DNA from: Streptomyces sp. NRRL F-2664
GTDB lineage: Bacteria; Actinomycetota; Actinomycetes; Streptomycetales; Streptomycetaceae
Assembly (NCBI RefSeq): GCF_000719345.1
Contig: NZ_JOFX01000009.1
Span: 62,001-126,000 of the forward strand
Direction of reading: 5' to 3'
DNA length: 64,000 nucleotides
The position numbers were made by a program, and so were the translations under genes. Position 1 is the first letter of the stretch; the number at the start of each line of letters is the position of its first letter. Positions 1 through 19,092 of the stretch are shown one piece after another. The notes below the pieces were generated by a model. The model did no database searches, had not been told where the DNA came from, and saw nothing but the letters and a program-made list of their open reading frames with translations.

Positions 1-94
1 GCGCCGCCCGCTCCGCCGAGAACAGGTGGGGGTAGAAGTCCGTCCAGAACGCCTGGTCGGCGAACCAGGCACCCGTGTCGTGCGCGTCGCTCAT
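1..94 (-). CDS. Class I SAM-dependent methyltransferase, N-terminus only (partial)
   Basis: Only the first 31 codons are present; the gene runs off the left edge. The start is fixed by an ATGA overlap with the stop of the homocitrate-synthase-like gene, as for the other genes of this operon. The N-terminus has the FW-x(2)-FYP-x-LF-x(2)-ER pattern common at the start of small class I SAM methyltransferases, but no SAM-binding motif lies inside the window. As the last visible gene of the proposed amiclenomycin/stravidin operon it could be the N-methyltransferase that methylates a stravidin peptide residue. That role is inference from context, and the family call rests on about 20 residues. Confidence 0.5.
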   Translation of the reverse strand, partial: MSDAHDTGAWFADQAFWTDFYPHLFSAERAA

Positions 95-1251
95 ACCGCC
101 GTGCCCGTCCGTTCGTGGTAGATCCCGATCACCTGGGCCTCGGTGACGCTCGACTTCGTCAGCACGGACGCCTCCTTGACCTCGCGCAGCACCGCGCCGA
201 GGACCTCGTCGTCGTGAGCGAGCCCGTGCTTGTCCAGGACGTGGGAGATGATCCCCTTCCCGGAGTGCTTGCCCATGACGATCCGGCGGGTGTGGCCCAC
301 CAGTTCGGGCCGCAGCGGTTCGTAGGCGGTGGAGTCCTTCATCACGGACGACACGTGCAGGCCGGACTCGTGCGAGAAGGCGTTCCCGCCGACGATCGGT
401 TTCATCGGGCTGACCTCGATGCCGGACAGGCCGGCGATCAGGTCCGACATGGGCTTGAGCCGGGACAGGTCGATGTTCGTCTCGAAGCCGTACAGCTGCG
501 TGAGGGCCACCACGACCTCCTCCAGGGAGGCGTTGCCGGCCCGTTCGCCCAGGCCGTTGACCGTGCACTGCACCTCGTCCGCGCCGCCGAGGATGCCGGC
601 AACGGTGTTGGCCGTGGCCAGGCCGAAGTCGTTGTGGCAGTGCAGGGACAGGGTCACGTGGATCTGCGAGCGCAGCCGCTGGATGAGTGCGCGGAAGGCG
701 TCGGGCGTGGTGGAGCCGACGGTGTCGGCGACGCCGACCAGGTCCGCTCCGCTCTCCTGGGCGAGGACCAGGACCTCCTCCAGGTAGTCGTACGGCGTCC
801 GGGTGGCGTCCTCGGACCCGCAGCCGACGTACATGCCGAGGTCCTTGGCGTAGGCGACGCCGTCGGCCATCTCGCGCTTGAGGCGGTCGCGCACCGCACT
901 GTCCGTACCGCCGAACTTGACCCGCATGTGCACGTCGGAGGTGGGCAGGAAGGTGTAGATGGCGTTCGCCCCGCAGGCCCTGGCGAGGTCGATCTCGGTG
1001 CGGTTCGGCCGGCAGAACGCCACCACGCGTGCGTCCAGACCCAGTTCGGCCATGCCGCGCACGGCGTCCTGGTCGGCCCGGGAGGACGCCGGGAAACCGG
1101 CGTCGATGACGTCGACGCCCATCTCGTCCAGGAGACGGGCGATCTTCACCTTCTCCTCGACCTGGAAGGCAACGCCGCAGGTCTGCTCGCCGTCGCGCAG
1201 TGTCGTGTCGCAGACGCGGATCCTGCGTGCGGGGGACGGGGTCTCGCTCAT
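91..1251 (-). CDS. Homocitrate/isopropylmalate synthase family protein, proposed side-chain homologation enzyme
   Basis: This 386-residue protein belongs to the DRE-TIM metallolyase group (LeuA, NifV/homocitrate synthase, HphA), which condense acetyl-CoA with a 2-oxo acid. The signature RDGEQ is near residue 19, the metal-binding HCHND is present, and the GLGERAGNASLEE loop follows. The chain ends after about 386 residues, so it lacks the long C-terminal leucine-feedback domain of primary LeuA and resembles homocitrate or benzylmalate (HphA-type) synthases. The start at 1251 is chosen because it makes an ATGA overlap with the upstream gene; a start 10 codons earlier would overlap more. In context it would add one carbon to an aminocyclohexadienyl-pyruvate to give the C4 side chain of amiclenomycin. 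The family is certain; the substrate is inferred. Confidence 0.9.
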   Translation of the reverse strand: MSETPSPARRIRVCDTTLRDGEQTCGVAFQVEEKVKIARLLDEMGVDVIDAGFPASSRADQDAVRGMAELGLDARVVAFCRPNRTEIDLARACGANAIYTFLPTSDVHMRVKFGGTDSAVRDRLKREMADGVAYAKDLGMYVGCGSEDATRTPYDYLEEVLVLAQESGADLVGVADTVGSTTPDAFRALIQRLRSQIHVTLSLHCHNDFGLATANTVAGILGGADEVQCTVNGLGERAGNASLEEVVVALTQLYGFETNIDLSRLKPMSDLIAGLSGIEVSPMKPIVGGNAFSHESGLHVSSVMKDSTAYEPLRPELVGHTRRIVMGKHSGKGIISHVLDKHGLAHDDEVLGAVLREVKEASVLTKSSVTEAQVIGIYHERTGTAV

Positions 1252-1835
1252 GCGCCTGCTCCCAACAGGTATGCGCGGCACCGGGTGCCGATGACTTCAC
1301 CGGAGAAGCGGGGACGGCGTCCGTAGACCACCCAGGTGGTGGTCACCGCGCCGATGTAGCGGTCCAGCCGCAGCGCCCCGTTCGACTTCTCCAGGTATTC
1401 GAGGTGGGTCAGCCCGGAGTCGTACGCCCCTGCCAGCAGCTGGGCGCCGACCACGGGCTTGGAGGCCACGGGGATCACCTCCTCCCACTGCGACACGTCG
1501 ACGTAGCCGGCGGTGGCGGGGACCAGTCCGAGGGAGCGGGGCCGCTCCACGTCGGCGCGGCTGAGGAGCACCAGTTCCTTCGTCGGGTGGACGAAGGTGT
1601 CCACCACGTGGACTTCGCTGAAGTACCGCTCGGTGAGCAGGTGCACCTCGGGGTGGGCGCTGCACTGCACGAGGTAGTCGGACTCCCCGCGCCGCACGCG
1701 TTCCAGGCCGTCGTGCAGGTCGAGGGTGAGGTCGATGCGGGCCTCGTCCTCGATGCCCTGGAAGGCGAAGTAGCGCTGCAGGGCGTTCTCGTGGCAGCTG
1801 CCCTCGGGACCGAGGGTGGTGAAGGTCAGGGTCAT
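1248..1835 (-). CDS. Prephenate dehydratase-fold protein, BacA-like (proposed non-aromatizing decarboxylase)
   Basis: A 195-residue protein with the prephenate dehydratase fold: it opens with TLGPEGSCHENA, matching the family's LGPxGT..E..A motif. The C-terminal Thr-Arg-Phe motif that dehydratases use for prephenate is absent. In its place is AVTTTWVVYGRR, which lines up by eye with the end of BacA (SWSLFGKG), the bacilysin prephenate decarboxylase that removes the ring carboxylate without aromatizing. There is no ACT regulatory domain. It sits between the chorismate mutase and homologation genes with 4-base overlaps on both sides. I propose it decarboxylates 4-amino-4-deoxyprephenate while keeping the cyclohexadiene and the amino group. 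The family assignment is solid; the reaction is inferred. Confidence 0.85.
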   Translation of the reverse strand: MTLTFTTLGPEGSCHENALQRYFAFQGIEDEARIDLTLDLHDGLERVRRGESDYLVQCSAHPEVHLLTERYFSEVHVVDTFVHPTKELVLLSRADVERPRSLGLVPATAGYVDVSQWEEVIPVASKPVVGAQLLAGAYDSGLTHLEYLEKSNGALRLDRYIGAVTTTWVVYGRRPRFSGEVIGTRCRAYLLGAGA

Positions 1836-2152
1836 CGCAGTGCCTCCGTGCCGGCCGCCGCGGGAGCGTCGATGATCTCGTCCTCCAGGCGGCATGCCTC
1901 GTCGATGAGCAGGGTGGCCAGGGAGCGCATGAAGTCGGGCGAGAGGCCGAGCCGCTCGCCCCGGGCGGCATACGCCTCGCGGACCGCGGTGACGCGGTGC
2001 GGCTGCATCATCGGGATGCCGTGGGTCCGCTTGACCTCGGCCACCTCGCAGCAGACGGTCAGCCGGGCCGCCACGAGCTCGGCGAGCTGCTGGTCCAGGG
2101 TCTCCAGCCGCTCGCGGAACGGCCGCAGGACCTCTTCGGGGGTCGCGTTCAC
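1832..2152 (-). CDS. AroQ-type chorismate mutase, proposed 4-amino-4-deoxychorismate mutase (PapB-like)
   Basis: A 106-residue single-domain AroQ helical mutase. The GTG start at 2152 makes a GTGA overlap with the deacetylase stop. By alignment with E. coli chorismate mutase by eye, the active-site residues corresponding to Arg11, Arg28 (AARLTV) and Lys39 (AEVKRTHG) are kept, but the position of Glu52, which contacts the substrate C4 hydroxyl, appears to be Val (HRVTAV). That fits a 4-amino substrate. It would rearrange ADC from the neighbouring synthase into 4-amino-4-deoxyprephenate, as PapB does for pristinamycin and chloramphenicol precursors. No PapC-type dehydrogenase is visible, which argues against p-aminophenylalanine as product. 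Confidence 0.88.
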   Translation of the reverse strand: MNATPEEVLRPFRERLETLDQQLAELVAARLTVCCEVAEVKRTHGIPMMQPHRVTAVREAYAARGERLGLSPDFMRSLATLLIDEACRLEDEIIDAPAAAGTEALR

Positions 2153-3087
2153 CGCGATACCTCCAATGCCAGGGCGCGGGCCGCGCCGCGCAGGGACGGG
2201 AGTCCGTATCCGCCCTCCTGGACGAAGACGGTGGGCAGCCGCTGCTGCGTCACGAGCGCGGCGACGGGACCGAAGACCTCCGGCGCCAGGCTCCATGAGC
2301 CGTGCGGGTCGCCTGCGAGCACGTCGTAGCCGACCGAGACCACCAGCGCGTCGGGATCCTGGCCGCGCAGGTGGGAGACGGCGTCCCGGACGAGTGCCAG
2401 GAATCCCTGCGGACCGGGGTCGGAGCCGGTCCCGAAGAGGCCGGGGCCCGGCGGGAAGGCGTAGGGGAAGTCGTCGGGCCGGGTGGAGTGCACGGACGCG
2501 AACGGCAGCGTGGCGTCGCCCTCGACGCAGGCGAGCGTGCCGTTGCCGAGGTGGTAGTCGACGTCGAGGATGCCCACCCGTGCCGCGCCCTCCTCCTGGA
2601 GGGTCCGGGCGGCGACGACGGCGTTGTTCAGGAAGCAGTACCCGCCGTACCAGCCGGGCCCCGCGTGGTGCCCCGGGGGCCGCACCAGTGCATAGGCGTG
2701 CTCGCCCCGGGCGGCCGTCAGCTCGGCCGCCCGCACCGCGGCGGCCGCGGCGCCCAGGGCGGCCGGCCGGACGCCGCGCGTCACGGGCGTCTCCTGCCGC
2801 AGGCCGGGGGCCGCGAACGCGTCGTCGAGGACGGACTCGGAGCCGTCCGGTACCCCGTGGCGCAGGTGCTCCAGCAGCTCCTTGCCGTGCACGGCGGTGG
2901 CGAGGCGCTCGGCCCGTTCCGTGTCGTGCGCGCCGGGCGGGGAGAGGACCGCCCCGCCGTCGAGGAGACCGGCCAGGATCCGGTGGATCCGCTCGGGCAC
3001 CTCCTTGCTCGCCACCCGGGCGCCGCCCGGCTCGACCGTGAACGGCAGGGCCTCGGACTCCTGCGGTACCACCACGTGCAGGGTCAT
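2149..3087 (-). CDS. HDAC-fold deacetylase (acetylpolyamine amidohydrolase family)
   Basis: A 312-residue class II histone-deacetylase-family hydrolase. The motifs occur in order: RPPGHHAG (catalytic His pair), YCFLNN, DVDYHLGNGT (zinc Asp and His), VGYDVLAGDP (third zinc ligand) and QEGGYG (catalytic Tyr), so it should be active. Bacterial members deacetylate small amines, not histones. The start at 3087 gives an ATGA overlap with the GNAT stop. Pairing with an acetyltransferase next door in one coupled operon suggests an N-acetyl protection and deprotection cycle on the amino-cyclohexadiene intermediate, or self-immunity. This role is inference. Confidence 0.9.
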   Translation of the reverse strand: MTLHVVVPQESEALPFTVEPGGARVASKEVPERIHRILAGLLDGGAVLSPPGAHDTERAERLATAVHGKELLEHLRHGVPDGSESVLDDAFAAPGLRQETPVTRGVRPAALGAAAAAVRAAELTAARGEHAYALVRPPGHHAGPGWYGGYCFLNNAVVAARTLQEEGAARVGILDVDYHLGNGTLACVEGDATLPFASVHSTRPDDFPYAFPPGPGLFGTGSDPGPQGFLALVRDAVSHLRGQDPDALVVSVGYDVLAGDPHGSWSLAPEVFGPVAALVTQQRLPTVFVQEGGYGLPSLRGAARALALEVSR

Positions 3088-3560
3088 GACAGGTCCTTGA
3101 TCACGCGCGGGCCGATGACACGGAAGCCGGAGCGCTCGTAGAAGGCCAGCGTCCGGGGGTAGGAGGGGAACTGCTCGGCGGGCAGGCAGACTTCGACCCG
3201 CCGTACGCCGTCTTCGGAGCACAGCGCGTCCAGTTCGGCCAGCAGCAGGGCCGCGACCCCCCGGGAGCGCAGTTCCGGCTCCACCCACAGCTCCTGGACG
3301 TGCCGGTAGGGCGCGGCCAGCCGCAGTGCCGTCTGGGTGGTGTACCCCAGTACGCCGGCCAGCCGCCCCCGGCCGTCCCGTGCGACCAGCACCCCGGCGC
3401 CGTCCCGGCCCGCGATGGCGTCCGCCACCGCCGCACCGAGTCCCGGGATCGTGTGCGAGGCGTCCCCGCGCAGCTCCCGCAGGAGCGCGGTGACGGCATC
3501 GGCCACCGCCTCCGCCTCGTCGGGCCTGGCCCGACCCGTCTCGAATTCCACCGTGCTCAT
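3084..3560 (-). CDS. GNAT-family N-acetyltransferase
   Basis: A 158-residue GNAT acetyltransferase. The acetyl-CoA pyrophosphate loop is seen in ELRSRGVAALL, after the strand QELWVEPE, and the C-terminal FYERSGFRV motif is typical. The start at 3560 overlaps the stop of the upstream ADC synthase by 4 bases. The likely substrate is an amine of the pathway (4-amino group or alpha-amino group), giving a protected or inactive acetyl form that the adjacent HDAC-fold enzyme could reverse. Puromycin and phosphinothricin producers use comparable acetylation for self-protection. The specific substrate cannot be read from sequence. Confidence 0.88.
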   Translation of the reverse strand: MSTVEFETGRARPDEAEAVADAVTALLRELRGDASHTIPGLGAAVADAIAGRDGAGVLVARDGRGRLAGVLGYTTQTALRLAAPYRHVQELWVEPELRSRGVAALLLAELDALCSEDGVRRVEVCLPAEQFPSYPRTLAFYERSGFRVIGPRVIKDLS

Positions 3561-5566
3561 CCGCGGCACCTCGCAGCCGTTCCCGATGTGGCCTCCTGCA
3601 GCTCCTCGACGCCGAGGACCCGCAGCAGCGCGCGGGCCTTGAGCCGCGTCTCCTGGAACTCCTCCTCGCCGTCGGAGAGGACGATGAGTGCGCCTCCCAC
3701 GCCGATGCGCACGCGGTTGCCCTCCCAGACGATGGTGCGGATCACGATGGACTGGTCCGCCGCCCCGTCGAAGCCGAACCAGCCGAGGCTGCCGGAGTAG
3801 ACCCCCCGCTCCTCCGGTTCGAGCTCGTCGAGGAGTTCCACGGTCCGCTTCTTCGGCGCGCCGGTCATCGATCCGCCGGGGAAGAGCGCCTGCACGCAGT
3901 CGACGGCGCCGCGGTCGGGGCGCAACTGCCCGCGCACGGTGGTGACGAGCTGGTGCACGGTGGCGTAGGACTCCGCGGCCATCAGCCTGGGCACGTGGAC
4001 CGTGCCGGCCGCGCAGACCTGTCCGAGGTCGTTGCGCAGCAGGTCGGCGATCATCAGGTTCTCGCTGCGGATCTTGCGGTCCGTCTCCAGCGCCGCGCGG
4101 GCGGCCTCGTCGGCCACCGGATCGGGGTGCCGGGGGGCTGTGCCCTTGATGGGCTTGGCCTCCACCGCGCCGTCGGCCGCGACCGCGACGAACCGCTCCG
4201 GCGAGGAGCTCAGCAGCGAGCGTTCGCCGAGCCGGACGTAGGCGGCGTAGGGCGCCGGGTTCGTGGCCCGCAGCCGCAGGTAGGTCTCCAGCGGGTCGGC
4301 CTCGCTGGTGCCGCTGATCTGGTACGTGTAGCAGGCCTCGTACGTCTCGCCGTCGCGCAGCCACTGCTGCACGGTGTCGAAGTGGCGCAGGTACGTCTCG
4401 CGGTCGACGCCCGGCTCCAGCACCGCCGGGGCGCTCTCGCGCCGTGGCCGGGGCACGAGCGGGCGGCGTGCCAGCGTGCGCACCTCCTCGCACCAGGTGT
4501 CGTGTTCCTCGGCGGACAGGCCCACCGTGACGAGGTAGCGCCGGCCGGCCTCGTGGTCGTAGGCCACGTAGCGGTCGACGCGGAGCAGTTCGGCGTCCGG
4601 CCGCTCACCGCTGCCGGCCCGGCCGATGCCGACGCTTCCCTTGACGCCGTAGCCGAGGTAGCCGAGGTAGCCGCCGGCGAACGGCACGGGCGACGCGCCG
4701 GCCGGCACCGCAGTGGCCGCCAGACCGGCCCGCAGGTGCTCGAAGACGGTGCCGGGCAGACGTTCCACGGCCTCGTGGGTCTCGCGCTCCACGACGCCCG
4801 CCCCGGCGTACGCCCGCAGGACCTGCAGGCCCTCCCCGGCGCAGGAGCCGAGGTAGCTGTAGCGCCCCATGCCGTACGCGGCGCGTGAGCTGTCGAGCCA
4901 GAAGCTGTACGGGCTGTCGGCGAAGGCGCGCAGGAAGAGGCCCTCGGCGTCGACGTCCGCCTCCAGTTCGCTCCAGCGCAGCGTCGGGGTGATGCCCAGG
5001 AAGTTCGCGACGATCGCCTCGCCGTACTCGCTGTCCACCGACTCGGGGTGGAACTGCACGCCGTGCAGCGGGCGTTCGCGGTGCCGCAGGCCCATCAGGA
5101 CGCCGTCCTCGGCCCAGGCGGTCGCCAGGAGGTGTTCCGGCAGCGGCTCGGTGACGGTGAGGGAGTGGTAGCGCACGGCGCGGAAGCCCTGCGGGATGCC
5201 GGTGAAGACGCCGGTCCCGGTGTGGGTGATCGCGCTGGTCCGTCCGTGCACGGTCTCCGGGGCGTGCCGCACGTCGCCGCCGAAGGCGAGGGCCAGGCCC
5301 TGATGGCCGAGGCATACCCCGAGGACGGGCACGGTGGCCCGCTCCAGCAGGTCCCGGCACAGCCCGAAGTCCTCTTCCCGGGCGGCGGTGCCGGGGCCCG
5401 GGGAGATCACGACATGGGTGAAGCCCCGTCCCAGCAGTTCGTCCGCCGTCGCCTCGTCGTTGCGCACGACGACGGGCGGCACACCTGCCACCTTCCAGAT
5501 CAGCTGGAAGAGGTTCCACGTGTAGGAGTCATAGTTGTCGACGAGAAGGATCCGCAGGTCTATCAC
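3557..5566 (-). CDS. Fused aminodeoxychorismate synthase (PabA-PabB, PapA type)
   Basis: A 669-residue fusion. Residues 1-190 are the glutamine amidotransferase: NYDSYTWNLF at the start, nucleophile Cys85 in GVCLGHQG, and the QFHPES catalytic His/Glu. The rest is the chorismate-binding domain with PIKGTAPR; the Lys in PIKGT is the mark of ADC synthase rather than anthranilate synthase (PIAGT). RSENLMIADLLRNDLG and FPGGSMTGAPKK are also present. It converts chorismate and glutamine to 4-amino-4-deoxychorismate. No PabC lyase is nearby, so ADC is routed to the mutase and not to folate. The GTG start has AAGGAG about 12 bases upstream. It is the first gene of the seven-gene coupled operon and fixes the promoter in the 5567-6459 interval. 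Confidence 0.95.
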   Translation of the reverse strand: MIDLRILLVDNYDSYTWNLFQLIWKVAGVPPVVVRNDEATADELLGRGFTHVVISPGPGTAAREEDFGLCRDLLERATVPVLGVCLGHQGLALAFGGDVRHAPETVHGRTSAITHTGTGVFTGIPQGFRAVRYHSLTVTEPLPEHLLATAWAEDGVLMGLRHRERPLHGVQFHPESVDSEYGEAIVANFLGITPTLRWSELEADVDAEGLFLRAFADSPYSFWLDSSRAAYGMGRYSYLGSCAGEGLQVLRAYAGAGVVERETHEAVERLPGTVFEHLRAGLAATAVPAGASPVPFAGGYLGYLGYGVKGSVGIGRAGSGERPDAELLRVDRYVAYDHEAGRRYLVTVGLSAEEHDTWCEEVRTLARRPLVPRPRRESAPAVLEPGVDRETYLRHFDTVQQWLRDGETYEACYTYQISGTSEADPLETYLRLRATNPAPYAAYVRLGERSLLSSSPERFVAVAADGAVEAKPIKGTAPRHPDPVADEAARAALETDRKIRSENLMIADLLRNDLGQVCAAGTVHVPRLMAAESYATVHQLVTTVRGQLRPDRGAVDCVQALFPGGSMTGAPKKRTVELLDELEPEERGVYSGSLGWFGFDGAADQSIVIRTIVWEGNRVRIGVGGALIVLSDGEEEFQETRLKARALLRVLGVEELQEATSGTAARCRG

Positions 5567-6459
5567 GATGTGGTCGAGCTCCTTGATGGCCGGCCCGGCT
5601 TTTTGGGCACGGTGAACCGGCTGACCGACTTTTCTATCGGTGGTGATTCATCGGTGAATCGCTTGCGCCGAATGCAGCGCACGGCGGCACGTTCAGGCGG
5701 AATCCAGGCATGGCGATGCGGATGAAAGTGACATGGTTTCAACCCCCGTTGTCTCTGTCACTGCTCGGATCTTCACCGGACGTTCATAATCGGCCGTTGG
5801 TCGATGGCCGCGGCGGTCCGGTGAGGCCGTTCCGACGTTCGATGCTAGTCATGCCGGGCCGAATATGCATCCTTGTGTGACTCAACCCACTGCGACCTGC
5901 GGTAACTGCGGCCCGGCTCGTGCAGGTCAGTTGTCACACCTCCGACGGCGTGGCCGCAAGCCAATATTGAGGAGCCGTCAGCCACCCGGGGGCACGGCTG
6001 CGGCCGTCATGACCGCCAGGTCGGCCGCAGGGGGTCGCGAGAAGATGGCGCGTTGCCGGGGAACCGGGCGCGGAATGGCTGAAAGCGCGGAAACGGAATC
6101 CTCCCTGACGGTTCGGTCATGTCCAGGCGCTTCGGGGAAATGGGGCGCGGGGCAGCGAGCCGAACATATCGACCTGCTCGATAGTTTCCAGCCACATGCA
6201 GTGCGGGCACTGGGATATTGGCCGGATAGCGTCTTTCCTTCCCGGCCACGCCGGAGGCAAAGGGAATGATTCAAGCCAGTGGCTCCGCGTGATCACCTTC
6301 ACGCCCGGGTCGTTTTTGTCGGCACTTGCTTGCTGGTACGTTGATCGGAACAACCCCGTTCGTAAAGCCGGTTCACAAGACCGGCTCGACCTGAAAGGGG
6401 GGCCGGGAAATTCACGCTCGTAACACGCGTGATCCCGCGCCGGGTCTCCGGGAGGCGCC
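5567..6459. promoter_or_regulatory. 893-bp divergent intergenic region, bidirectional promoter of the anti-biotin operons
   Basis: This gap separates the ADC synthase operon (minus) from the exporter-ACP-KS operon (plus). It is less GC-rich than its surroundings and has no convincing coding region; short open frames in it lack codon bias and ribosome sites. Two inverted repeats stand out. GATTCA-TCGG-TGAATC at 5645-5660 is 79 bases upstream of the ADC synthase start. AGCCGGT-(7)-ACCGGCT at 6366-6386 is about 75 bases upstream of the exporter start. A weaker GGAAC/GTTCG pair lies just upstream of the second. They are candidate operators. No regulator gene is present between 1 and 14100. Confidence 0.55.
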
Positions 6460-7686
6460 ATGCCCCACAAGGTGATTCTGGCGCTTCTCGCAATCGGCTC
6501 CTTCGCCGTCGGTACGGACGGCTTCGTCATCAGCGGCATCCTCCCGCGCATCGCCGGCGAGTTGGACGTGTCCGAGCCGATGGCCGGGCAACTCGTCACG
6601 GCCTTCGCGCTGAGCTACGCGATCAGCGCGCCGGTCCTGATGACCCTGACCGCCGGACTGTCCCGGCGCGTCATGCTGCGCGGCTCCATGCTGGTTTTCC
6701 TGCTCGCCAACCTGCTGGGCGCGCTCGCCCCGACCTACGGGACGCTCATGGCGGCCCGGATCCTGGCCGGGATCAGCGCGGCCCTCTACATGAACACCGC
6801 CGCGGCCACCGCGACGGCGCTCGCGGGGGAGCGGTACCGGGGACGGGCCGTCTCCATGATCATCGGCGGCCTCACGGTGGCCACCGCGCTCGGCGTGCCC
6901 GGCGGTACGCTGGTCGGCCAACTCGGCAGCTGGCGCCTCACCCTGGCGCTGGTCGTCGCGCTGGCCCTGCCCGTCTTCGTCGGCCTCTTCGTGGTCCTGC
7001 CCGCCGTACCGCAGCCGCCCGCGATCGGCATGCGGGACCGGGTCCGGATCGGCGCGCAGCGACCGGTGCTGCTGGCCGTCCTGGCCAACCTGTTCGCGGT
7101 CGCGGGCTGCTTCACCGTCTTCACCTACCTGGCGGCCTTCACCCGCGCCACCACGGGCATGGACGACGCCCGGGTGAGCATCGTCCTGCTGGTCTTCGGC
7201 GTCGCCGGGGCCGTGGGCAACGCGGTCGGCGGCCGGCTCGGCGACCGCATCGGGGCCGAACGCACCTTCACCGCCGCGGTGTCGGGTGTAGCGCTGACGA
7301 TGGCGCTGCTGGGCGTGCTGGCGAGCTTCTTCGCCTCCGGCTCGGCGGCGGTGGTGGCGGTCTTCCTCGCCGTGACCGTCGCCTGGGGCACGGTCTACTG
7401 GGCCGAGCCGCCCACCGCCATCCACCGCGTCCTGGACCTGGCACCGACTGCCCCGAGCGTGGCCATCTCCGTCAACAGCTCCGCGTCGTACCTCGGCGTG
7501 GCCCTCGGCGGTGCGGTCGGCGGTGCGGTCCTCGACCGGCTCTCGCCGGCCGCCCTGGCCTGGACGGGCGCGGGGCTGGAGCTGGTCGCCCTGGCCCTGG
7601 TCGTCCTGCCCAGGATGGCGGCGGGCCGGGGCGGTCGCGCCGGGAAGGCAGCCGGTGTGCTGCGGGAGCCCGTGCCCGAGGGATGA
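6460..7686 (+). CDS. MFS drug/metabolite exporter (DHA1-type)
   Basis: A 408-residue major facilitator with about 12 hydrophobic segments from residue 5 to 390. The N-terminal GTDGFVISGILPRIA and the first-repeat YAISAPVLMTLT are typical of the AraJ/CmlR-like DHA1 exporters. GGGAGG lies 8 bases before the ATG. It heads the plus-strand operon, 76 bases ahead of the ACP gene, and faces the ADC synthase operon across the shared promoter region, so export of the stravidin-type product or its acetylated form is the natural guess. The substrate is inferred from position only. Confidence 0.88.
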   Translation: MPHKVILALLAIGSFAVGTDGFVISGILPRIAGELDVSEPMAGQLVTAFALSYAISAPVLMTLTAGLSRRVMLRGSMLVFLLANLLGALAPTYGTLMAARILAGISAALYMNTAAATATALAGERYRGRAVSMIIGGLTVATALGVPGGTLVGQLGSWRLTLALVVALALPVFVGLFVVLPAVPQPPAIGMRDRVRIGAQRPVLLAVLANLFAVAGCFTVFTYLAAFTRATTGMDDARVSIVLLVFGVAGAVGNAVGGRLGDRIGAERTFTAAVSGVALTMALLGVLASFFASGSAAVVAVFLAVTVAWGTVYWAEPPTAIHRVLDLAPTAPSVAISVNSSASYLGVALGGAVGGAVLDRLSPAALAWTGAGLELVALALVVLPRMAAGRGGRAGKAAGVLREPVPEG

Positions 7687-7762
7687 CCCGACGACAGCCG
7701 GGACGTCCGGATCCGCATGAAACACATACAATCCATACGATTTTGGGGGAGGTTGGCCACCC

Positions 7763-8008
7763 GTGGCTAACGACGACGTTTTCGACCGCCTCACCACCTG
7801 CGCCGTCGACGTCCTGCAGGTCAAGGCCGAGTCCGTGACCGCGGACGCGAGCCTGACCGACGATCTCGGCGCCAGCAGTCTCATCCAGGTCGAACTGGTC
7901 ATGGCCGTCGAGGAGGAGTTCGGCATATCGGTGCCGGACGAGTCCGTCGAGGAGATCCGGACCGTCGGCGACCTGCACCGGCTGATCCTCTCGCTGGTCG
8001 CCCGATGA
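7763..8008 (+). CDS. Acyl carrier protein
   Basis: An 81-residue acidic ACP. The phosphopantetheine site reads LGASSLIQVEL where most ACPs have LGADSL, so the Asp before the carrier Ser is Ser here; the carrier Ser itself is present. The GTG start at 7763 has GGGGAGG about 11 bases upstream. The stop overlaps the ketosynthase start (ATGA), so carrier and ketosynthase should be made in a fixed ratio. It probably carries the acyl chain that the KS extends and the BioF-like enzyme consumes, as ACP carries pimeloyl in ordinary biotin synthesis. Confidence 0.93.
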   Translation: MANDDVFDRLTTCAVDVLQVKAESVTADASLTDDLGASSLIQVELVMAVEEEFGISVPDESVEEIRTVGDLHRLILSLVAR

Positions 8009-9186
8009 CCGGCGGGAAGCACGGTGCACGCCGCGTGGCGGTCACCGGGATCGGTGTCGTCAGCGCCTGCGGCACGGGCGCGGACGCCTTCTGGGAGGGC
8101 CTCTTCACCACCCCGCCGGACGGCCACCGGGAACTGGCGGACTGGGACCCCTCACCCTGGATGGACGTCCGGGAAGCGCGGCACACCGACCGGTTCACCC
8201 AGTTCGCCGTCGCCGCCGCCGACATGGCGTGCCGCGACTCCGGCCTGACCGAGGTGGACGCCGAACGCAGCGGCGTCGTCGTCGCCACGGCCCTCGCCGG
8301 CGTCAGTACCTTCGAACGGCAGAGCATCGTCCACCACGAGCGCGGCGGCAGGCGGGTCTCCCCCTTCCTCGTGCCGATGATGATGGCCAACGCGGCCGCC
8401 GCGACGGTGGCCATGCGCCAGGGCTGGCGCGGACCGTGCGAGAGCCTGGAGACCGCCTGCGCGGCCGCCACCCACGCCATCGGGCACGCGGCACGGATGA
8501 TCGCCGACGGCACCTGCGACCGGGTTCTCGCCGGCGGCACCGAGGCGGCGATCACACCCACCATCGTGGCCGGGTTCACCAACATGCGGGCCCTCTCCGC
8601 GTCCGGCCGCACCCGGCCCTTCGACGCGGAACGCGACGGCTTCGCCATCGCCGAGGGGGCCGCGGTGCTGGTCCTGGAGGACTGGGACACGGCGGTGGCG
8701 CGCGGCGCCACCCTGTACGGCGAGGTGCTCGGCTCCGGCAGCACGGCCGACGCGCACGACATCACCATGCCCGCGCCCTCGGGAGCCGACGCGGCCCGCT
8801 GCATCCGCCTGGCCCTGGAGGACGCCGGCGTGCGCCCGCAGGACGTACGGCAGATCAACGCCCACGGCACGGGCACCCTGCGCAACGACGAGGCGGAGAC
8901 GAACGCCATCCTGTCGGTCTTCCCGGACTGCCCGCCGGTGACCTCCACCAAGGGGGCCACCGGACACGCCTTCGGCGCGGGCGGCGCGCTGGAGGCCGTC
9001 GCGGTGCTGCTGTCCATGCGCCACTCGGTGATCCCCCCGACCATCGGCCTGACCACCCCCGACCCGGCGCTCGCCGTGGACGTCGTGACCGGCGACGGCA
9101 GGAAGTGGGAGCCCGGACCGTCCCTCACCCAGTCGTTCGGGTTCGGCGGCCACAACGGCGTCCTCGTCCTCGGCCCCGCCGGATAG
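8005..9186 (+). CDS. FabF-like beta-ketoacyl-ACP synthase
   Basis: A 393-residue condensing enzyme of the KAS II type. The catalytic triad is complete: Cys in ETACAAATHA, His in NAHGTGT and His in GATGHAFGAGG. The N-terminus VAVTGIGVVSACG and C-terminus QSFGFGGHNGVL are standard. It is translationally coupled to the preceding ACP. It does not carry the Gln-for-Cys change of chain length factors, and no AT, KR or dehydratase is nearby, so reductive steps would come from primary fatty acid synthesis. It could build a short dicarboxyl or branched acyl-ACP for the next gene. Confidence 0.93.
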   Translation: MTGGKHGARRVAVTGIGVVSACGTGADAFWEGLFTTPPDGHRELADWDPSPWMDVREARHTDRFTQFAVAAADMACRDSGLTEVDAERSGVVVATALAGVSTFERQSIVHHERGGRRVSPFLVPMMMANAAAATVAMRQGWRGPCESLETACAAATHAIGHAARMIADGTCDRVLAGGTEAAITPTIVAGFTNMRALSASGRTRPFDAERDGFAIAEGAAVLVLEDWDTAVARGATLYGEVLGSGSTADAHDITMPAPSGADAARCIRLALEDAGVRPQDVRQINAHGTGTLRNDEAETNAILSVFPDCPPVTSTKGATGHAFGAGGALEAVAVLLSMRHSVIPPTIGLTTPDPALAVDVVTGDGRKWEPGPSLTQSFGFGGHNGVLVLGPAG

Positions 9187-9202
9187 CGTTCGGAGCGAAG
9201 CG

Positions 9203-10366
9203 ATGGAAACAGAGCGACACGGCGACCCGCACGAGGTCTTCGCGTGGATCGACGACAGCACCCGGCGTCGTGACCGGGCGGGCCTCACCCGCCGGGTCCA
9301 GGTCCGGGGACCCCGCCCGAACGTGATCGACTTCGGCGGCAACGACTACCTCGGCCTCACCCGCCACCCCGGTGTCGTCCGGGCGGCGGCCGACGCCACC
9401 GTGACCTGGGGCGCCGGATCGACCGGCTCCCGGCTCGCCACCGGCACCACCGAGGTGCACGTCGAACTGGAACGGGAACTGGCCGACTTCGCCGGGGCGG
9501 AGGCCGCCCTGGTCTTCTCCTCCGGCTACCTGGCCAACCTGGGCGCGGTGACCGCCCTGGCCCGCCCCGGCACCCTGATCGCCTCCGACGCGTTCAACCA
9601 CGCCTCCCTGATCGACGGCTACCGCCTCTCCGGCGCCGACGTGGTCGACACCGGCCACGCCGACCCGCAGGCGCTGGAGCGGGCGCTCGCCGAACGGGAC
9701 CAGCAGCGCGCGGTGGCCGTGACCGAGTCGGTGTTCTCCGTCGACGGCGACCTCGTCGACCTGCGCGCGGTCCTTGACGTCTGCCGCCGTCACGGCGCCG
9801 GGCTGCTCGTCGACGACGCCCACGGCTTCGGTGTCATCGGCGCGGCGGGAGAGGGCGCGGTGAGGGCCGCCGGCCTGGCCGGCAGCCCCGACGTGGTCAC
9901 CACCATCACCCTGTCGAAGTCCCTGGGCGCCCAGGGCGGCGCGGTGATCGGCCCCTGCCGGGTCGTCGACCACGTCATGAACATGGCCCGAAGCTTCCTC
10001 TTCGACACCGGGCTCGCCCCGGCCTCCGCCGCCGGAGCCCTGGCGGCACTGCGGGTCCTGCGCGCCGAACCGGACCGTCCGGCCCGGACCCGGGCGGTCG
10101 CGGTGGCGCTGGCCGAACGCCTCTCCGCCGCCGGCCTGCCGGTGACCGAGGCGCAGGCGGCCGTGGTCTCGGTCCGCGGACCCTCCGCGGCCCTGACCGC
10201 ACAGTGGGCGCAGGACTGCCTCGCCGACGGCGTCAAGGTCGCCTGCTTCCGCCCGCCGTCGGTCCCCGACCGGTTCTCCCGGATCCGGCTCACCTCCCGG
10301 GCCGACCTCACCGAAGCGGAGATCGACCGCGCCATCGACGTCGTGGTCAAGCACAGCCCCTGGTAG
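9203..10366 (+). CDS. BioF-like PLP alpha-oxoamine synthase (8-amino-7-oxononanoate synthase homologue)
   Basis: A 387-residue alpha-oxoamine synthase. NDYLGL, GAGSTGSRLATG, the DDAHGFGV aspartate/histidine loop and the PLP lysine in ITLSKSLG are all present. The whole pattern is closest to BioF, which joins pimeloyl-ACP or -CoA with L-alanine to make KAPA, the substrate of BioA. No bioA, bioB or bioD lies beside it, so it is not the housekeeping biotin operon. Next to streptavidin and a proposed BioA inhibitor pathway it either makes extra KAPA for self-protection or an analogue for an antimetabolite. The 16-base gap from the KS supports one operon. Confidence 0.9.
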   Translation: METERHGDPHEVFAWIDDSTRRRDRAGLTRRVQVRGPRPNVIDFGGNDYLGLTRHPGVVRAAADATVTWGAGSTGSRLATGTTEVHVELERELADFAGAEAALVFSSGYLANLGAVTALARPGTLIASDAFNHASLIDGYRLSGADVVDTGHADPQALERALAERDQQRAVAVTESVFSVDGDLVDLRAVLDVCRRHGAGLLVDDAHGFGVIGAAGEGAVRAAGLAGSPDVVTTITLSKSLGAQGGAVIGPCRVVDHVMNMARSFLFDTGLAPASAAGALAALRVLRAEPDRPARTRAVAVALAERLSAAGLPVTEAQAAVVSVRGPSAALTAQWAQDCLADGVKVACFRPPSVPDRFSRIRLTSRADLTEAEIDRAIDVVVKHSPW

Positions 10367-10419
10367 CCCGACCGGCCCGGGTCCGGGCCGCGGCTCCGGG
10401 CCGAGTGATGGAGGACGTC

Positions 10420-11961
10420 ATGACGATCGCCGGCGGGTTCCTCACGCACGCCGCCGAGTCACCCGACCGGACCGCTCTCGCCGTCGGCGACGGGCCCGGG
10501 GGACGGTGGAGCTACGGCGCGCTGCGGCGCGGCGCGCTCGCTGTCGCCCGGGCCCTGCGCGCCGACTTCGGCCCGGACCCCGCCCCCGGGGTGCGGATCG
10601 CCCTCCTGCTCGGCAACCGCGCGGAGTTCGCACCGCTCTTCCTCGGCGGCGCGCTCGCCGGCATCCCGGTGATGGTCCTCGACCCGGCGTGGAGCAGCGC
10701 CGAACTGGCGGCCGTCCTGCACGACGCGCCGCCCGCACGGCTCTTCTGCGCATCCGCCACAGGACCGGTCGCCCGCTGCGCGGACCCCGCCACCCTCGTC
10801 GACGTCACCGACCCCCAATTCGCGGCATGGCTGCGCGGCGGCCCCGCGCCGCCGACCCGCGGCGCGGCCACGCCGTTGCCGTACGTGGCGCCCGACAGGC
10901 CCTTCTACGTGGGCTTCACCTCCGGGAGCACGGGCCGCCCCAAGGGCGTGGTCCGCTCGCACCGCTCCTGGTTGCGCACGTTCGACCGCTACACCGCCGC
11001 CTTCGGCATCGGGCCGGCCGACACCGTGCTGCTGCCCGGCTCCCTGGCGCACTCGCACTTCCTCTTCGGGCTGGTGCACGCCCTGCACGTCGGCGCGACC
11101 GTACGCCTGATGCCCGTCTTCGACGCGGACCGCGCGCTCGACGACCTCGAACGGCACCACGTCACCCGGCTCTACCTGGTGCCGACGATGTTCCAGGCCC
11201 TGCTCGAACACGCCCGTCGACACCCGGGCCGCCGCTTTCCGCAGGTGCGCTCGCTGCTCTCGGCGGGCGCGAAGTGGTCCCCGGCCCGGCGCGCCCTTGC
11301 CGGGGAGCTGTTCCCGAACGCCGATGCCGCGGAGTTCTACGGCGCCACCGAACTCAGCCTCGTCTCCGTGCAGCACGGCCACGAGGACGGGCCCGGGGAC
11401 TCCGTCGGCAGACCGGTGGACGGCGTGGAGCTGTCGCTGCGCTCACCCGCGGGCGAGGAGGTCGCCGCCGGCGAGCCCGGCCAGGTGCACGTCCGCAGCG
11501 ACATGCTGTTCACCGGCTACCTGTCCGCGGAGGACGGCGACGGTCCCGACCGGGACGGCTGGTTCACCGTCGGGGACATCGGCCGCGTCGACGAGCGGGG
11601 CTACCTGCACCTCGTCGGCAGGAAGCAGGGGATGTTGATCAGCGGGGGCCTGAACGTGCATCCCGAGGAGGTCACGGCGGCCCTGCTCCGGCTGGAGGAG
11701 ATCGACGAGGCCGCCGTCGTGGGACTGCCGGACCCGCGGTGGGGCGACCTGGTGTGCGCCGTCGTCCGGTGGCGGCCGGGGGCCCGCCTCGGCCTGGCGG
11801 AGGTACGCGACCGGGCCTCGGCCCACCTGTCGCGGCAGAAGTGCCCCCGCCGGCTCTTCGAGGTGGACGAGCTGCCCCACACGCCGAGCGGAAAGATCGC
11901 CCACGGCCGGGTGCGCAGGGCCCTGCTGGAGGGCGGGCACGGGATGTGGGAGGTCCTGTGA
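10420..11961 (+). CDS. AMP-dependent acyl-CoA/ACP ligase
   Basis: A 513-residue ANL-family adenylating enzyme. The P-loop is FTSGSTGRPKG, the A5 motif is EFYGATEL, the hinge region is WFTVGDIG followed by GRKQGM, and the catalytic C-terminal lysine is in TPSGKIAHG. The ATG at 10420 is preferred over one 12 bases earlier because GGAGG sits 5 bases before it. It would activate a carboxylic acid, possibly pimelate or an analogue, and load it on CoA or the ACP at 7763 for the BioF-like enzyme. It ends the plus-strand operon and is followed by a strong hairpin. Confidence 0.9.
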   Translation: MTIAGGFLTHAAESPDRTALAVGDGPGGRWSYGALRRGALAVARALRADFGPDPAPGVRIALLLGNRAEFAPLFLGGALAGIPVMVLDPAWSSAELAAVLHDAPPARLFCASATGPVARCADPATLVDVTDPQFAAWLRGGPAPPTRGAATPLPYVAPDRPFYVGFTSGSTGRPKGVVRSHRSWLRTFDRYTAAFGIGPADTVLLPGSLAHSHFLFGLVHALHVGATVRLMPVFDADRALDDLERHHVTRLYLVPTMFQALLEHARRHPGRRFPQVRSLLSAGAKWSPARRALAGELFPNADAAEFYGATELSLVSVQHGHEDGPGDSVGRPVDGVELSLRSPAGEEVAAGEPGQVHVRSDMLFTGYLSAEDGDGPDRDGWFTVGDIGRVDERGYLHLVGRKQGMLISGGLNVHPEEVTAALLRLEEIDEAAVVGLPDPRWGDLVCAVVRWRPGARLGLAEVRDRASAHLSRQKCPRRLFEVDELPHTPSGKIAHGRVRRALLEGGHGMWEVL

Positions 11962-12000
11962 TCGGGCGGCGGCCCGTCGCCGCGGCGGCGCGAAGGCCTC

Positions 12001-12043
12001 CGGTCGGCCGGACCGGCGGCGGCGCCTGCGGTCCGGCCGACCG
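12001..12043. terminator. Bidirectional hairpin terminator
   Basis: Two perfect 15-base arms (12001-12015 and 12029-12043) are separated by 13 bases, between the convergent acyl ligase and P450 genes. Confidence 0.75.
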
Positions 12044-12051
12044 TGAACCGC

Positions 12052-13299
12052 TCAGCCCCGCCGCACCAGCACCTGGAGCGGGGCGCGGAAGGAGAGCAGC
12101 GCCAGCATCTGCGGAGAGGACTCCGTGCAGAAGCGGAGGTCCGGAAGCCGGGCCGCGGTCATCCGCATCACCACGTCGGCCTCCATCCGGGCCAGTTCGG
12201 CTCCCGAACAGCGGTGGCGTCCGATGCCGAAGGACAGGTGCTTGCGCACGTTGGCCCGGTGCGGACAGATCTGCTCGGGGTGGTCGAAGACCTCCGTGTC
12301 CGAACCGGTCGACGCCAGCATCAGCAGCAGCGGAGCCCCCGCCGGCAGGTCGACGCCGGACAGCGTCATCGGCCGGCCGGTGATCCGGCGCCAGGTGGTG
12401 ATGGGCGGGTCCCGCCGCAGCACCTCCTCGGTCCACGGCTCCACGGCCGCCGGTTCGACGGCGAACCGCTGCCACAGACCGGGCTCCTGCAGTGCCCTGC
12501 GGTACATGGTGCTGAGCATCTGGGTGGTCGTCATCTGACCGGCGATGATCATGAAGTAGACGACGGCGGCCTTCTGGGTGACTCCGAGCGGCTCCCCGTC
12601 CGGCAGCCGGTGCGCGGCCAGTGCGCCGAGCAGCGTGCCGTCCTCGGGCGCGGGCTGCGACACCAGGTCGGTGAGCCAGGCGTAGAACGCGGCGGCCTCA
12701 CGGGCCAGCGCCACTTCGCGCTCGCCGCGCGGCCGTCCCCAGAACAGCTCCAGGGAGGCGTCGCTCCAGCGGGCCAGGGTGTCGATGTCCACGTCGATGG
12801 CCGATTCCAGCCCGAGCAGTGCCAGCATCACCCGGAAGGGCACGTCGCGGGCAATGGTCGTCGCCAGGTCGCAGACACCGTCGGCGGCGAGCCGCTGCTC
12901 GACGTCGTCGAGGGCCTCCGCCACGACCTTCTCCACCATCGGCACCGAGGCGGCCACGGCCTGGGCGTTGAACAGCCTGGTCATGATGCGCCGATAGCCG
13001 GCGTGACTGTCGGAACCGTTGTTTGCAAGCGTTTGCGGGAGGTCGAATTTGACCCGCGCCAGCGCGCGCAGCGTCGGCACGGAGAATCGCCCCACTGCGT
13101 CGATCGCATTGTCCGGAAGGTAATTCTCCGGATCGAGGAGAACCGTGCGCACGTCCTGGTATCGACTGATCAGCCAAAGCCCCGTGTTCTCGTCGAACTT
13201 CACGGGTTCGCGTGCGCGGAGCGCCGCCATCGCCGGATAGGGGTCGAGCGCATACTCCTGGTCGAACAGATCCACACTGTCAACGGGCATTGCCACCAT
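12052..13299 (-). CDS. Cytochrome P450
   Basis: A 415-residue bacterial class I P450. The heme-Cys loop FGIGRHRCSGAELAR is near the C-terminus, and an ExxR helix (EEVLRR) is present. The I-helix reads MIIAGQMTTTQ: the acidic residue that normally precedes the conserved Thr is Met, which is unusual for an oxygen-activating enzyme. The start at 13299 (ATG) is chosen; a GTG one codon upstream and an ATG three codons downstream are alternatives, with GGAAGGTGG 7-10 bases before. No ferredoxin is adjacent. It lies between the BioF-like operon and streptavidin. A BioI-type role (oxidative cleavage of acyl-ACP to pimeloyl-ACP) is possible but not shown. Codons near the 5' end are less GC-rich than in neighbours. 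Confidence 0.92.
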   Translation of the reverse strand: MVAMPVDSVDLFDQEYALDPYPAMAALRAREPVKFDENTGLWLISRYQDVRTVLLDPENYLPDNAIDAVGRFSVPTLRALARVKFDLPQTLANNGSDSHAGYRRIMTRLFNAQAVAASVPMVEKVVAEALDDVEQRLAADGVCDLATTIARDVPFRVMLALLGLESAIDVDIDTLARWSDASLELFWGRPRGEREVALAREAAAFYAWLTDLVSQPAPEDGTLLGALAAHRLPDGEPLGVTQKAAVVYFMIIAGQMTTTQMLSTMYRRALQEPGLWQRFAVEPAAVEPWTEEVLRRDPPITTWRRITGRPMTLSGVDLPAGAPLLLMLASTGSDTEVFDHPEQICPHRANVRKHLSFGIGRHRCSGAELARMEADVVMRMTAARLPDLRFCTESSPQMLALLSFRAPLQVLVRRG

Positions 13300-13427
13300 C
13301 ACGTCAATTCCACCTTCCCCCGGCCGACGGTACCAAGGCGTCGTGATCACGCTGAATACCGGCCGGGGAGGAAACCGTGTGAGACGCGTCTCGTGCGGAA
13401 CTCCGCCCGGGGCGGGCCCCGCCGGCG

Positions 13428-13464
13428 GCGGGCGGCCCGCAGGACATGCCTGCGGCCCGCCCGC
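13428..13464 (-). terminator. Terminator downstream of streptavidin gene
   Basis: 16-base arms with one mismatch (13428-13443 and 13449-13464) close a 5-base loop, starting about 46 bases past the streptavidin stop. Confidence 0.7.
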
Positions 13465-13509
13465 GCGTATGCGGTCCGACGTCCCGGCACTCCGGGTGCC
13501 CGGGCGCTG

Positions 13510-14061
13510 TTACTGCTGGACGGCGTCGAGCGGGTTGCCGTTGTTGACGCCCGCCTTCTTCGCCGCGTCGATCGACGCGGCCGACGGCTTCACCTTGGTG
13601 AAGGTGTCGTGACCCACCAGCGTGGACTTCCAGGCGTTGGCCGCGGTGGTGCCCGAGGTCAGCAGCCACTGGGTGTTGATGCGGGCCTCGGAGCCGCCGA
13701 CGTACTGGCCGCTCCAGGTAGTGGCGGAGTGGGCATTGCGGTAGTTGTTCTTCCACGCCACCGTCCAGCCGAGGGCGGTGCCGCTGCCGTCGGTGGCCGG
13801 GGCGCTGTCGTAACGGCCGGTCAGGACGTAACGGCTCTCGGCGTTGCCGACGGCCGACTCGTAGGTGCCGGTGAGGCTGCCGTCCGCGTTCGCGGTCACG
13901 ATGAAGGTCGAGCCGAGCTGGTTGTACCAGGTGCCGGTGATGCCGGAGTCGGCGACGGCGGCCTGGGCCTTGGCGTCCTTCGACGGGTCCGCGGAGGCGC
14001 TGGCCGTAATACCGACGGTGGTGAGCGAAACGGCGATGGCAGCAACGACGATCTTGCGCAT
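13510..14061 (-). CDS. Streptavidin (secreted biotin-binding protein)
   Basis: A 183-residue precursor, the same length as S. avidinii streptavidin. A signal peptide of about 24 residues ([15 protein letters not shown]...ASASA) precedes the mature start DPSKD. The avidin beta-barrel is intact: [49 protein letters not shown] and [14 protein letters not shown] carry the Asn, Ser, Tyr, Trp and Asp residues known to contact biotin, and the Trp that reaches into the neighbouring subunit is present. It forms a tetramer and binds biotin almost irreversibly. By memory it differs from S. avidinii protein at about ten sites, mainly the N-terminal tail. A GTG three codons upstream (14070) has better spacing (7 bases) to GGGGAG than this ATG does. 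Confidence 0.99.
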
Positions 14062-14328
14062 GTGCGACACGAAAAATCTCCCCTAGTTGTTGCGCGGCGG
14101 GGGGTGGACGGCGTGCAGGGTGTGCGCGCCGCCGGTATCCCGCCCGTCAAGGTTTGTGACCTCGGCCGGGCACCTGGAGATGCCGGTGGACAATCATCGA
14201 TTCCGCATGTGCCTTCGGCGGATGATCTGGATGGTCGAGGTCCGGTCGATGGTTGCCAAGGGCACATGTTCGGTTTAAATCGTACTATCGATTGGCGGGT
14301 TATCAACAACGTTTCATGCAAAGGAGTT
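14062..14328. promoter_or_regulatory. Streptavidin promoter region
   Basis: This is non-coding sequence upstream of streptavidin (minus strand), bounded by the terminator of the WD40 gene. The ribosome site GGGGAG is 7 bases from the GTG at 14070. The distal part (14190-14320) is AT-richer than the surroundings and may hold the promoter. I see no perfect long palindrome and no convincing BirA/BioQ-type biotin operator. Confidence 0.45.
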
Positions 14329-14347
14329 TCGGCCAAACTGTGGCCGA
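14329..14347 (-). terminator. Short hairpin after the WD40 gene
   Basis: TCGGCCA and TGGCCGA arms enclose a 5-base loop just past the stop at 14352. No T-run follows. Confidence 0.45.
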
Positions 14348-14351
14348 GTCC

Positions 14352-18236: not shown

Positions 18237-18335
18237 GGCAGTGCGCCCAGGCAGTGAGATGGCGTCGCCCAGGCTACCGCGCGGAGCCGCCGGATAGAGG
18301 GATCTTCCAGCCGGTACGACGAGCACAGGAAACGC

Positions 18336-18361
18336 CCGGAGCCGCCGGCCGGCGGCTCCGG
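18336..18361 (-). terminator. Palindromic terminator after the I36-like gene
   Basis: A perfect 26-base palindrome (13-base arms, no loop) lies about 20 bases past the stop at 18383. Confidence 0.6.
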
Positions 18362-18382
18362 ACGCCGTCCTCGCCGGGTGCG

Positions 18383-18745: not shown

Positions 18746-19092
18746 GGCTTCCCCTTGGGGACCGGCGGATCGTTCGTGCTTGCGGGCTTCGGGCTGCGGG
18801 CTGCGTGTCTCGTGCCCGGTGCCGACGGCCCAGCCTGGCGCCGCCGGGCAGCCGCGGTCGACGGGTTGCCCGTTGCCCGTCCCGCTGCGGACCGGGAAAC
18901 CCCTCCCGGCCGGCGCCGTTGCCGTTCGGCGGGCAACCGCGCGGGGTCGCGCGGTGTGGAGCCCCCACGGAATCCGCCTCCGGTACGACGATCCACTCTC
19001 CGGACGTCAAAATGCGGCCGTTTGCCGACGGCATGCGTCGATCTGCTCACCCAGTGTGGCGATTTGTCCCAATCGCCCATAACTTCTGCAGG
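18746..19092. promoter_or_regulatory. Divergent promoter region
   Basis: A 347-bp gap between the I36-like gene (minus) and the beta-helix gene (plus). No coding sequence is supported. The last 100 bases before 19092 are AT-richer and are the likely promoter of the beta-helix gene. Confidence 0.4.

Follow-up and report, generated by a model that had tools for sequence, protein, structure and literature searches.

The window described here, a stretch of 64,000 nucleotides from Streptomyces sp. NRRL F-2664 (C9:62001-126000, where C9 is our handle for contig NZ_JOFX01000009.1; the genome comprises 8.0 Mb in 672 contigs), begins within an operon of stravidin-type (sta) genes, continues into a divergently oriented alpha-methyl-KAPA-type (mkp) module and then reaches a streptavidin gene, sav1. 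This gene and the start of the sta operon, at position 5566, are 7.9 kb apart, close to the 8 kb that a first-pass annotation of the bare sequence had given. It is one of two avidin-family genes on the contig (PF01382 matches at C9:28245-28583 and 75597-75941, about 47 kb apart), and between them the pair encloses genes of the acidomycin (acd), ANDA (nda), stravidin and alpha-methyl-KAPA types. We consider the window to be, with a probability of roughly 0.9, the right-hand section of a 'Streptavidin BGC Nexus' of the published type (BGC, biosynthetic gene cluster), i.e. a streptavidin-flanked locus for anti-biotin antibiotics. This reading covers the genes, the gene order, the protein families and the conservation seen here; the locus is an additional member of the nexus with small differences, and the interpretation is already in print. 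One account assigns stravidins to sta, alpha-methyl-KAPA to mkp, acidomycin to acd and ANDA to nda, puts a streptavidin gene on either side of the sta operon, and states that streptavidin binds acidomycin as well as biotin; in related strains the mkp, acd and nda products have been shown, and stravidins are among the compounds obtained from the mobilized region (PMC13336041). In a second account, the acidomycin genes adjoin the stravidin genes, and the stravidin cluster is credited to Montaser and Kelleher 2020 (PMC13111796). The amiclenomycin/stravidin operon that the first-pass annotation had proposed beside streptavidin agrees with the sta operon of PMC13336041, and its expectation that the cluster was partly known already was correct; what it had regarded as partly new is in print as well. 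Production of stravidin, acidomycin, alpha-methyl-KAPA and ANDA by NRRL F-2664 itself is predicted from the genes.

The sta operon, which by our own count contains 14 genes, lies between the two streptavidin genes (Table 1). With the likeliest starts, 4-bp overlaps (start/stop end 3560/3557, 3087/3084, 2152/2149, 1835/1832 and 1251/1248) chain the 4-amino-4-deoxychorismate (ADC) synthase, the GNAT acetyltransferase, the HDAC-fold protein, the AroQ mutase, a putative decarboxylase and a homocitrate/isopropylmalate-synthase (HCS) homologue. The 4-amino type of chorismate enzyme expected of a stravidin pathway is present in the window, as judged by a PIKGT motif that we take to distinguish it from anthranilate-type enzymes. 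The ADC synthase, mutase and HCS homologue had all been named at first pass and are borne out by family and structure matches; the GNAT and HDAC-fold genes went unnamed in that finding. Relatives of the HDAC-fold protein in the PDB include acetylpolyamine amidohydrolases and HDAC6, and its His-His, Asp/His metal-ligand and GGY positions are invariant across it and two distant homologues; these we presume to be the metal-binding and catalytic residues. At E<=0.001, neither Pfam nor NCBIfam recognizes the 1248-1835 protein, whose single match in the PDB, to prephenate dehydratase 3mwb, is weak (E=0.03); its description as 'BacA-like' is a plausible one.

The left flank, to which the first-pass annotation had pointed for the remaining pathway genes, holds LeuCD, isopropylmalate dehydrogenase (IPMDH), a class-IV aminotransferase and a FemAB-like protein, all on the same contig, such that the genes for one-carbon extension (HCS homologue, LeuCD and IPMDH) are all present. 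Beyond a second, ligase-like gene comes an MFS transporter gene, then one for a class-II DAHP (3-deoxy-D-arabino-heptulosonate 7-phosphate) synthase; farther left are a nonribosomal peptide synthetase (NRPS) and a polyketide synthase, both nda-like, then acd-like genes, and then the second streptavidin. In the acd-like set beside sav2, a P450 and a phosphopantetheinyl transferase (PPT) were recognized by Pfam, and an AMP-ligase, an NRPS, a short-chain dehydrogenase/reductase and an MFS protein from gene order and by-eye inspection of the sequences; S. virginiae and S. avidinii have the acd homologues in matching order (AMP-ligase compared over 100 residues).

Table 1. Features of the window and of its left flank (window positions unless prefixed C9; percentages are protein identities to homologues)
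Feature	Position	Strand	Evidence and remarks
SAM (S-adenosylmethionine) methyltransferase, start	1..94	-	PF13649 3e-20 in open reading frame (ORF) L006:3318-5300; start from reading frame; gene runs left of window
HCS homologue, HMGL-like, chain extension	91..1251	-	PF00682, PF22617; start by overlap
Proposed non-aromatizing amino-deoxyprephenate decarboxylase	1248..1835	-	no Pfam match; 4-bp overlap
AroQ-type chorismate mutase	1832..2152	-	PF01817 4.9e-16; start by 4-bp overlap (ORF 1832-2296)
HDAC-fold deacetylase	2149..3087	-	PF00850 3.6e-44; 4-bp overlap
GNAT N-acetyltransferase	3084..3560	-	PF00583, PF13508; start set by 4-bp overlap
ADC synthase, PabA-PabB fusion, PIKGT	3557..5566	-	first sta gene; PDB 8hx6 best, E=2.8e-171
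Divergent sta-mkp intergenic region	5567..6459	.	site of extra bioA in some relatives
mkpA, MFS transporter	6460..7686	+	PF07690
mkpB, acyl carrier protein	7763..8008	+	NF002148 81.8 bits (cut-off 71); 96% to S. virginiae
mkpC, ketosynthase	8005..9186	+	PF00109/PF02801; 93% to S. virginiae
mkpD, BioF-like alpha-oxoamine synthase	9203..10366	+	TIGR00858 373 bits, below 426 cut-off
mkpE, AMP-binding ligase	10411..11961	+	PF00501/PF13193; 83% to S. virginiae; start approximate
mkpG, cytochrome P450	12052..13350	-	PF00067; 93% to S. virginiae, 90% to S. avidinii homologue
sav1, streptavidin	13510..14061	-	NF047623 356 bits (cut-off 300); PDB streptavidin 5n7x E=3.7e-108
FemAB-like protein	C9:60063-61328		left flank
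LeuCD	C9:58036-59967		left flank
IPMDH	C9:56972-58072		left flank
Class-IV aminotransferase	within ORF C9:56058-57407		left flank
Second ligase-like protein	C9:54688-56076		no Pfam match; ligase reading by eye
sav2, second streptavidin	C9:28095-28670

Thirteen window genes keep their order in S. virginiae, S. avidinii and strain NRRL F-2580, with protein identities of 83-96%, 78-94% and 77-93%, respectively, and with order conserved in three relatives, chance is not an issue. At the DNA level, the two longest aligned blocks are 89.6 and 90.8% identical to S. virginiae. The closest parallel is the S. virginiae nexus (NRRL ISP-5094, L008/G042), which has the same two streptavidins, acd, nda, sta and mkp, with the primary biotin operon nearby, the compared proteins being 80-96% identical to those of NRRL F-2664. 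In our strain the primary bioA and an adjoining BioF-like gene are near the end of another contig, C26; by synteny with S. virginiae that end adjoins the start of C9, which would put the primary bioA about 31 kb from sav2 and hence, if the two contigs are rightly joined, the primary biotin operon near the nexus. The S. avidinii nexus (JCM 4726, L011/G039) shares sav1, sav2, sta, mkp and acd; unlike our strain it is without nda (as published, and none was seen in our homologue comparison), and its streptavidin genes are reported to be some 36 kb apart, as opposed to 47 kb here.

The mkp cluster is present with mkpC, mkpD and mkpG, and mkpD is 59% identical to the BioF-like gene next to the primary bioA. 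The 'BioF-like module' of the first-pass annotation (6460-11961 plus the P450 at 12052-13350) is real but not new, being the published mkp cluster, in which mkpC, D and G are essential for alpha-methyl-KAPA and mkpE and F dispensable (PMC13336041). Between mkpE and mkpG, S. virginiae carries mkpF, whereas our strain does not: the gap is 90 bp here, leaving no room for the gene, and measures some 1.2 kb in S. virginiae and NRRL F-2580, where the mkpF product looks thiolase-like by eye (it is called FabH-like in PMC13336041). The mkpF-sized interval is lacking in S. avidinii and S. katrae as well, so mkpF is optional. A further relative is the mdb cluster of S. lydicus (PMC13336041), which our locus G303 resembles; they have the mkp-type ketosynthase, BioF, acyl carrier protein and P450 in common with our strain, but unlike it they have bioADB-type genes adjoining mkp. 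No streptavidin or sta genes were matched in the 20 kb of G303 that were compared.

Several relatives differ from NRRL F-2664 in the interval from sta to mkp. S. avidinii has a complete bioA of 438 codons there, standing alone between mkpA and the ADC synthase gene (L011:17966-19282); S. amritsarensis has an intact extra bioA (L069:4355-5632, 88% identity), S. katrae has the start of one running up to a contig end (L010:8089-8382), and in NRRL F-2580 the gene is broken into two separated pieces (L009:19097-19405). Neither our strain nor S. virginiae was found to have an extra bioA between sta and mkp. A relic of one in the window's intergenic region was considered and rejected, as tblastn with the S. 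avidinii nexus BioA returned nothing in 5567..6459 at E<=1, and the genome as a whole has one BioA above the family cut-off. A BioA tree groups both complete nexus copies with a partial S. katrae contig as a single clade (bootstrap 100, SH-aLRT 100) and sets them apart from the primary copies, five in all, that these strains carry (100/99). That S. katrae contig (G394:C333) owes its assignment to the nexus to an earlier tree rather than to its location, and the short piece with the S. katrae gene start did not enter the tree. Both complete nexus BioAs also differ at 7 of the 162 columns that 30 background BioAs (29 of 38 other matching genomes plus S. gobiensis) keep invariant, one of the seven being in the WLRPF motif. 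These substitutions fit a target copy under altered selection, whether resistant or not. A different role is quite conceivable, although we would wager slightly more against it than for it: the extra bioA may make alpha-methyl-desthiobiotin, like mdbA of S. lydicus. MdbA converts alpha-methyl-KAPA (PMC13336041), and in G303 a set of bioA, bioD-like (by eye) and bioB-like genes adjoins mkp, as in the published S. lydicus mdb layout. In S. avidinii, by contrast, the nexus bioA has no such companions, and the changed invariant columns hint at altered selection. The G303 BioA changes 6 of these columns, sharing one position but no residue with the nexus copies, and the tree does not settle how the two are related; a common origin is neither supported nor rejected, and kinship thus lends the mdbA-like role no help. 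Neither the extra bioA nor the recurring sta core described below is discussed in the passages of PMC13336041 and PMC13111796 that were available; the supplements and the 2020 and 2025 accounts may mention them.

How would the sta genes make their product? The class-II DAHP synthase would boost chorismate, which the ADC synthase would then aminate; the AroQ mutase would give 4-amino-4-deoxyprephenate, and the 1248-1835 protein would decarboxylate this while keeping the ring non-aromatic. Chain extension by one carbon would fall to the HCS homologue, LeuCD and IPMDH, after which the class-IV aminotransferase would make the amino acid; the FemAB-like and second ligase-like proteins would build the peptide, the methyltransferase would decorate it, and the MFS protein would export it. 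The product would be amiclenomycin and its peptides, made alongside alpha-methyl-KAPA from mkp, acidomycin from acd and ANDA from nda, with the streptavidins binding biotin and acidomycin. We infer each of these sta steps. The stravidin chemistry reportedly proposed by Montaser and Kelleher in 2020 matches the pathway of the first-pass annotation, with the same gene functions as here.

This scheme leaves the GNAT and HDAC-fold genes to be placed, and loci outside the nexus bear on them. In S. gobiensis (G089; L070:11318-18198), the ADC synthase, GNAT, HDAC, mutase and decarboxylase follow one another as in sta (53, 38, 44, 41 and 61% identity, in that order), preceded by an aminotransferase-like piece (37%) and followed by a pyridoxal phosphate (PLP) decarboxylase (PF00282). 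A second cassette, on plasmid p187_1 of Bradyrhizobium sp. 187 (L110:4051-9787), consists of pabA, a pabB-GNAT fusion with PIKGT, HDAC, mutase, decarboxylase and MFS genes, with transposase genes on both sides. Both have the five functions in sta order but, unlike sta, are without matched chain-extension genes: no HCS, LeuCD or IPMDH was matched in the 30 kb around the S. gobiensis core, whose genome has no avidin, or in the 16.6 kb around the Bradyrhizobium cassette. The surroundings of the S. gobiensis core look by eye like polyamine-use genes. The same functions also occur fused: HDAC-mutase fusions number 3 among the best 120 of 4687 HDAC relatives (P0151 from Lonsdalea populi, P0167 and P0233), and mutase-decarboxylase fusions 2 among the best 120 of 350 relatives of the Bradyrhizobium decarboxylase (P0288 and P0299); the sequences of P0151, P0233, P0288 and P0299 were inspected, and P0167 is taken from the listing. 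From the fusions and the gene order, the five functions would seem to work jointly, with the GNAT and HDAC belonging to the ring-building part rather than to the extension part.

Amiclenomycin inactivates BioA through its ring amine, and the simplest reading is therefore that the GNAT caps this amine and the HDAC-fold enzyme uncaps it. In other words, the GNAT would acetylate the ring amine early and the HDAC-fold enzyme would later remove the cap, which would stop the amine from attacking the producer's own BioA; the inhibition involves covalent modification of PLP (PMC13336041). The 4-bp overlaps, the same five-gene order in S. gobiensis and Bradyrhizobium (with the GNAT there fused to PabB) and the protein fusions all argue for such a protect/deprotect pair, to which we nevertheless give slightly less than an even chance. 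Unlikely, but still deserving of attention, is that the two enzymes jointly serve self-resistance, modifying the antibiotic once it is complete. Finished antibiotics are commonly acetylated as a route to resistance, and because our strain has a single BioA over the family cut-off and no nexus copy, some other protection is to be expected; yet the fusions tie the GNAT to PabB and the HDAC to the mutase, both early pathway enzymes, and in three distant loci the two genes are located between the ADC synthase and the mutase. Far less credible still is an aromatic product of the 4-aminophenylalanine type, such as chloramphenicol-like pathways make: these too use an ADC synthase and an AroQ mutase, but no prephenate-dehydrogenase family was seen among the scanned operon proteins (two without any Pfam match), and the LeuA/CD/B-type extension set fits the extra carbon of amiclenomycin.

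Returning to the acetyl cap, we tentatively extend the idea, at a little below evens, to propose that sta grew out of an older, movable five-function cassette that makes 4-amino-cyclohexadienyl blocks under an acetyl cap, with the deacetylase arming the product, and that different lineages have adapted it. The cap would keep the PLP-reactive ring amine harmless and unaromatized; Streptomyces would have added the LeuA/CD/B-type extension to aim the cassette at BioA, S. gobiensis would have added a PLP decarboxylase, and Bradyrhizobium would have kept the bare cassette with an exporter on a plasmid.

Several points count against this picture of the locus and its parts. The absence of mkpF is a departure from the published set, though removing it made no difference in the published strain (PMC13336041). 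The call of a decarboxylase for the 1248-1835 protein is a proposal from position and weak similarity to prephenate dehydratase, not from a characterized homologue, and the ligase identity of C9:54688-56076 is a by-eye reading of a protein with no Pfam match. For the GNAT and HDAC, the substrate may be the completed peptide or some other amine. The five fusions are known here as proteins, detached from their gene neighbourhoods, and most of the decarboxylase relatives listed lack a demonstrated tie to an HDAC gene. When listed decarboxylase and HDAC matches were paired by eye on the lengths of their longest contigs, one usable link emerged outside the stravidin clade, on contig 44251 (P0244 and P0145), coincidences at 3871, 6391 and 1522 bases not being counted.

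The nexus genes are rare among the 392 Streptomyces genomes sampled. The 1248-1835 protein is found at >=60% identity in 4 of them (our strain, S. avidinii, S. virginiae and S. gobiensis) and as weaker matches (29-35%) in 10 more; the avidin family occurs in 11, with two copies in 3; and the mkp ketosynthase, with four candidates scored per genome shown, reaches E<=1e-150 in 4. Matches were obtained in 3 of the 372 genomes of an order-level sample and in 1 of the 227 of a phylum-level sample, that one being the source genome. The decarboxylase family as a whole is large, with 3502 clusters passing E<=1e-20 out of 7991 scored candidates (the best 120 are listed). Many of the relatives P0019-P0120 have no Pfam match (four scanned), and five among those listed are named Solirubrobacterales; linkage in that order was sought in the 227-genome phylum sample, where no such genome with context was reached. 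Viral contigs had no decarboxylase relative. Among 72,556 plasmid records, 5 matched the decarboxylase, namely Bradyrhizobium sp. 187 and four from Variovorax at 31-36%. In two of the Variovorax records (L111:7998-8606 and L112:8001-8588), the relative sits inside an amino-acid ABC-transporter operon, which is a different setting.

S. amritsarensis MTCC 11845 (L069) has the sta genes from ADC synthase to HCS, adjoining mkp and bioA, in contrast to S. amritsarensis JCM 19660, which is listed among strains without the stravidin cluster (PMC13111796). Next to sav1, a long minus-strand ORF with WD40-like repeats by eye occupies window 14352-19034, and its DNA can be aligned throughout with that of S. 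virginiae, S. amritsarensis, NRRL F-2580 and S. avidinii. No RNA family reached gathering scores in window 1-15000. A regulator operator common to the nexus clusters was sought in seven upstream regions (sta, mkp, sav1, sav2, acdA, acdE/PPT and primary bioF; 21 region pairs, two word lengths, 60 shuffles each) and rejected, every pair giving p >=0.15 against the shuffles.

The locus thus confirms, and slightly extends, the published coordinated attack on biotin synthesis, and its comparison with relatives makes two questions testable. How is BioA protected in strains that make two BioA inhibitors but do not have the extra bioA of their relatives? And do an HDAC-fold enzyme and a GNAT serve as a removable guard on the amine of a warhead? 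If the cassette reading is true, it would provide a search handle for new inhibitors of PLP enzymes in rhizobia and other bacteria, and undiscovered aminotransferase inhibitors of the cassette type would be expected outside Streptomyces.

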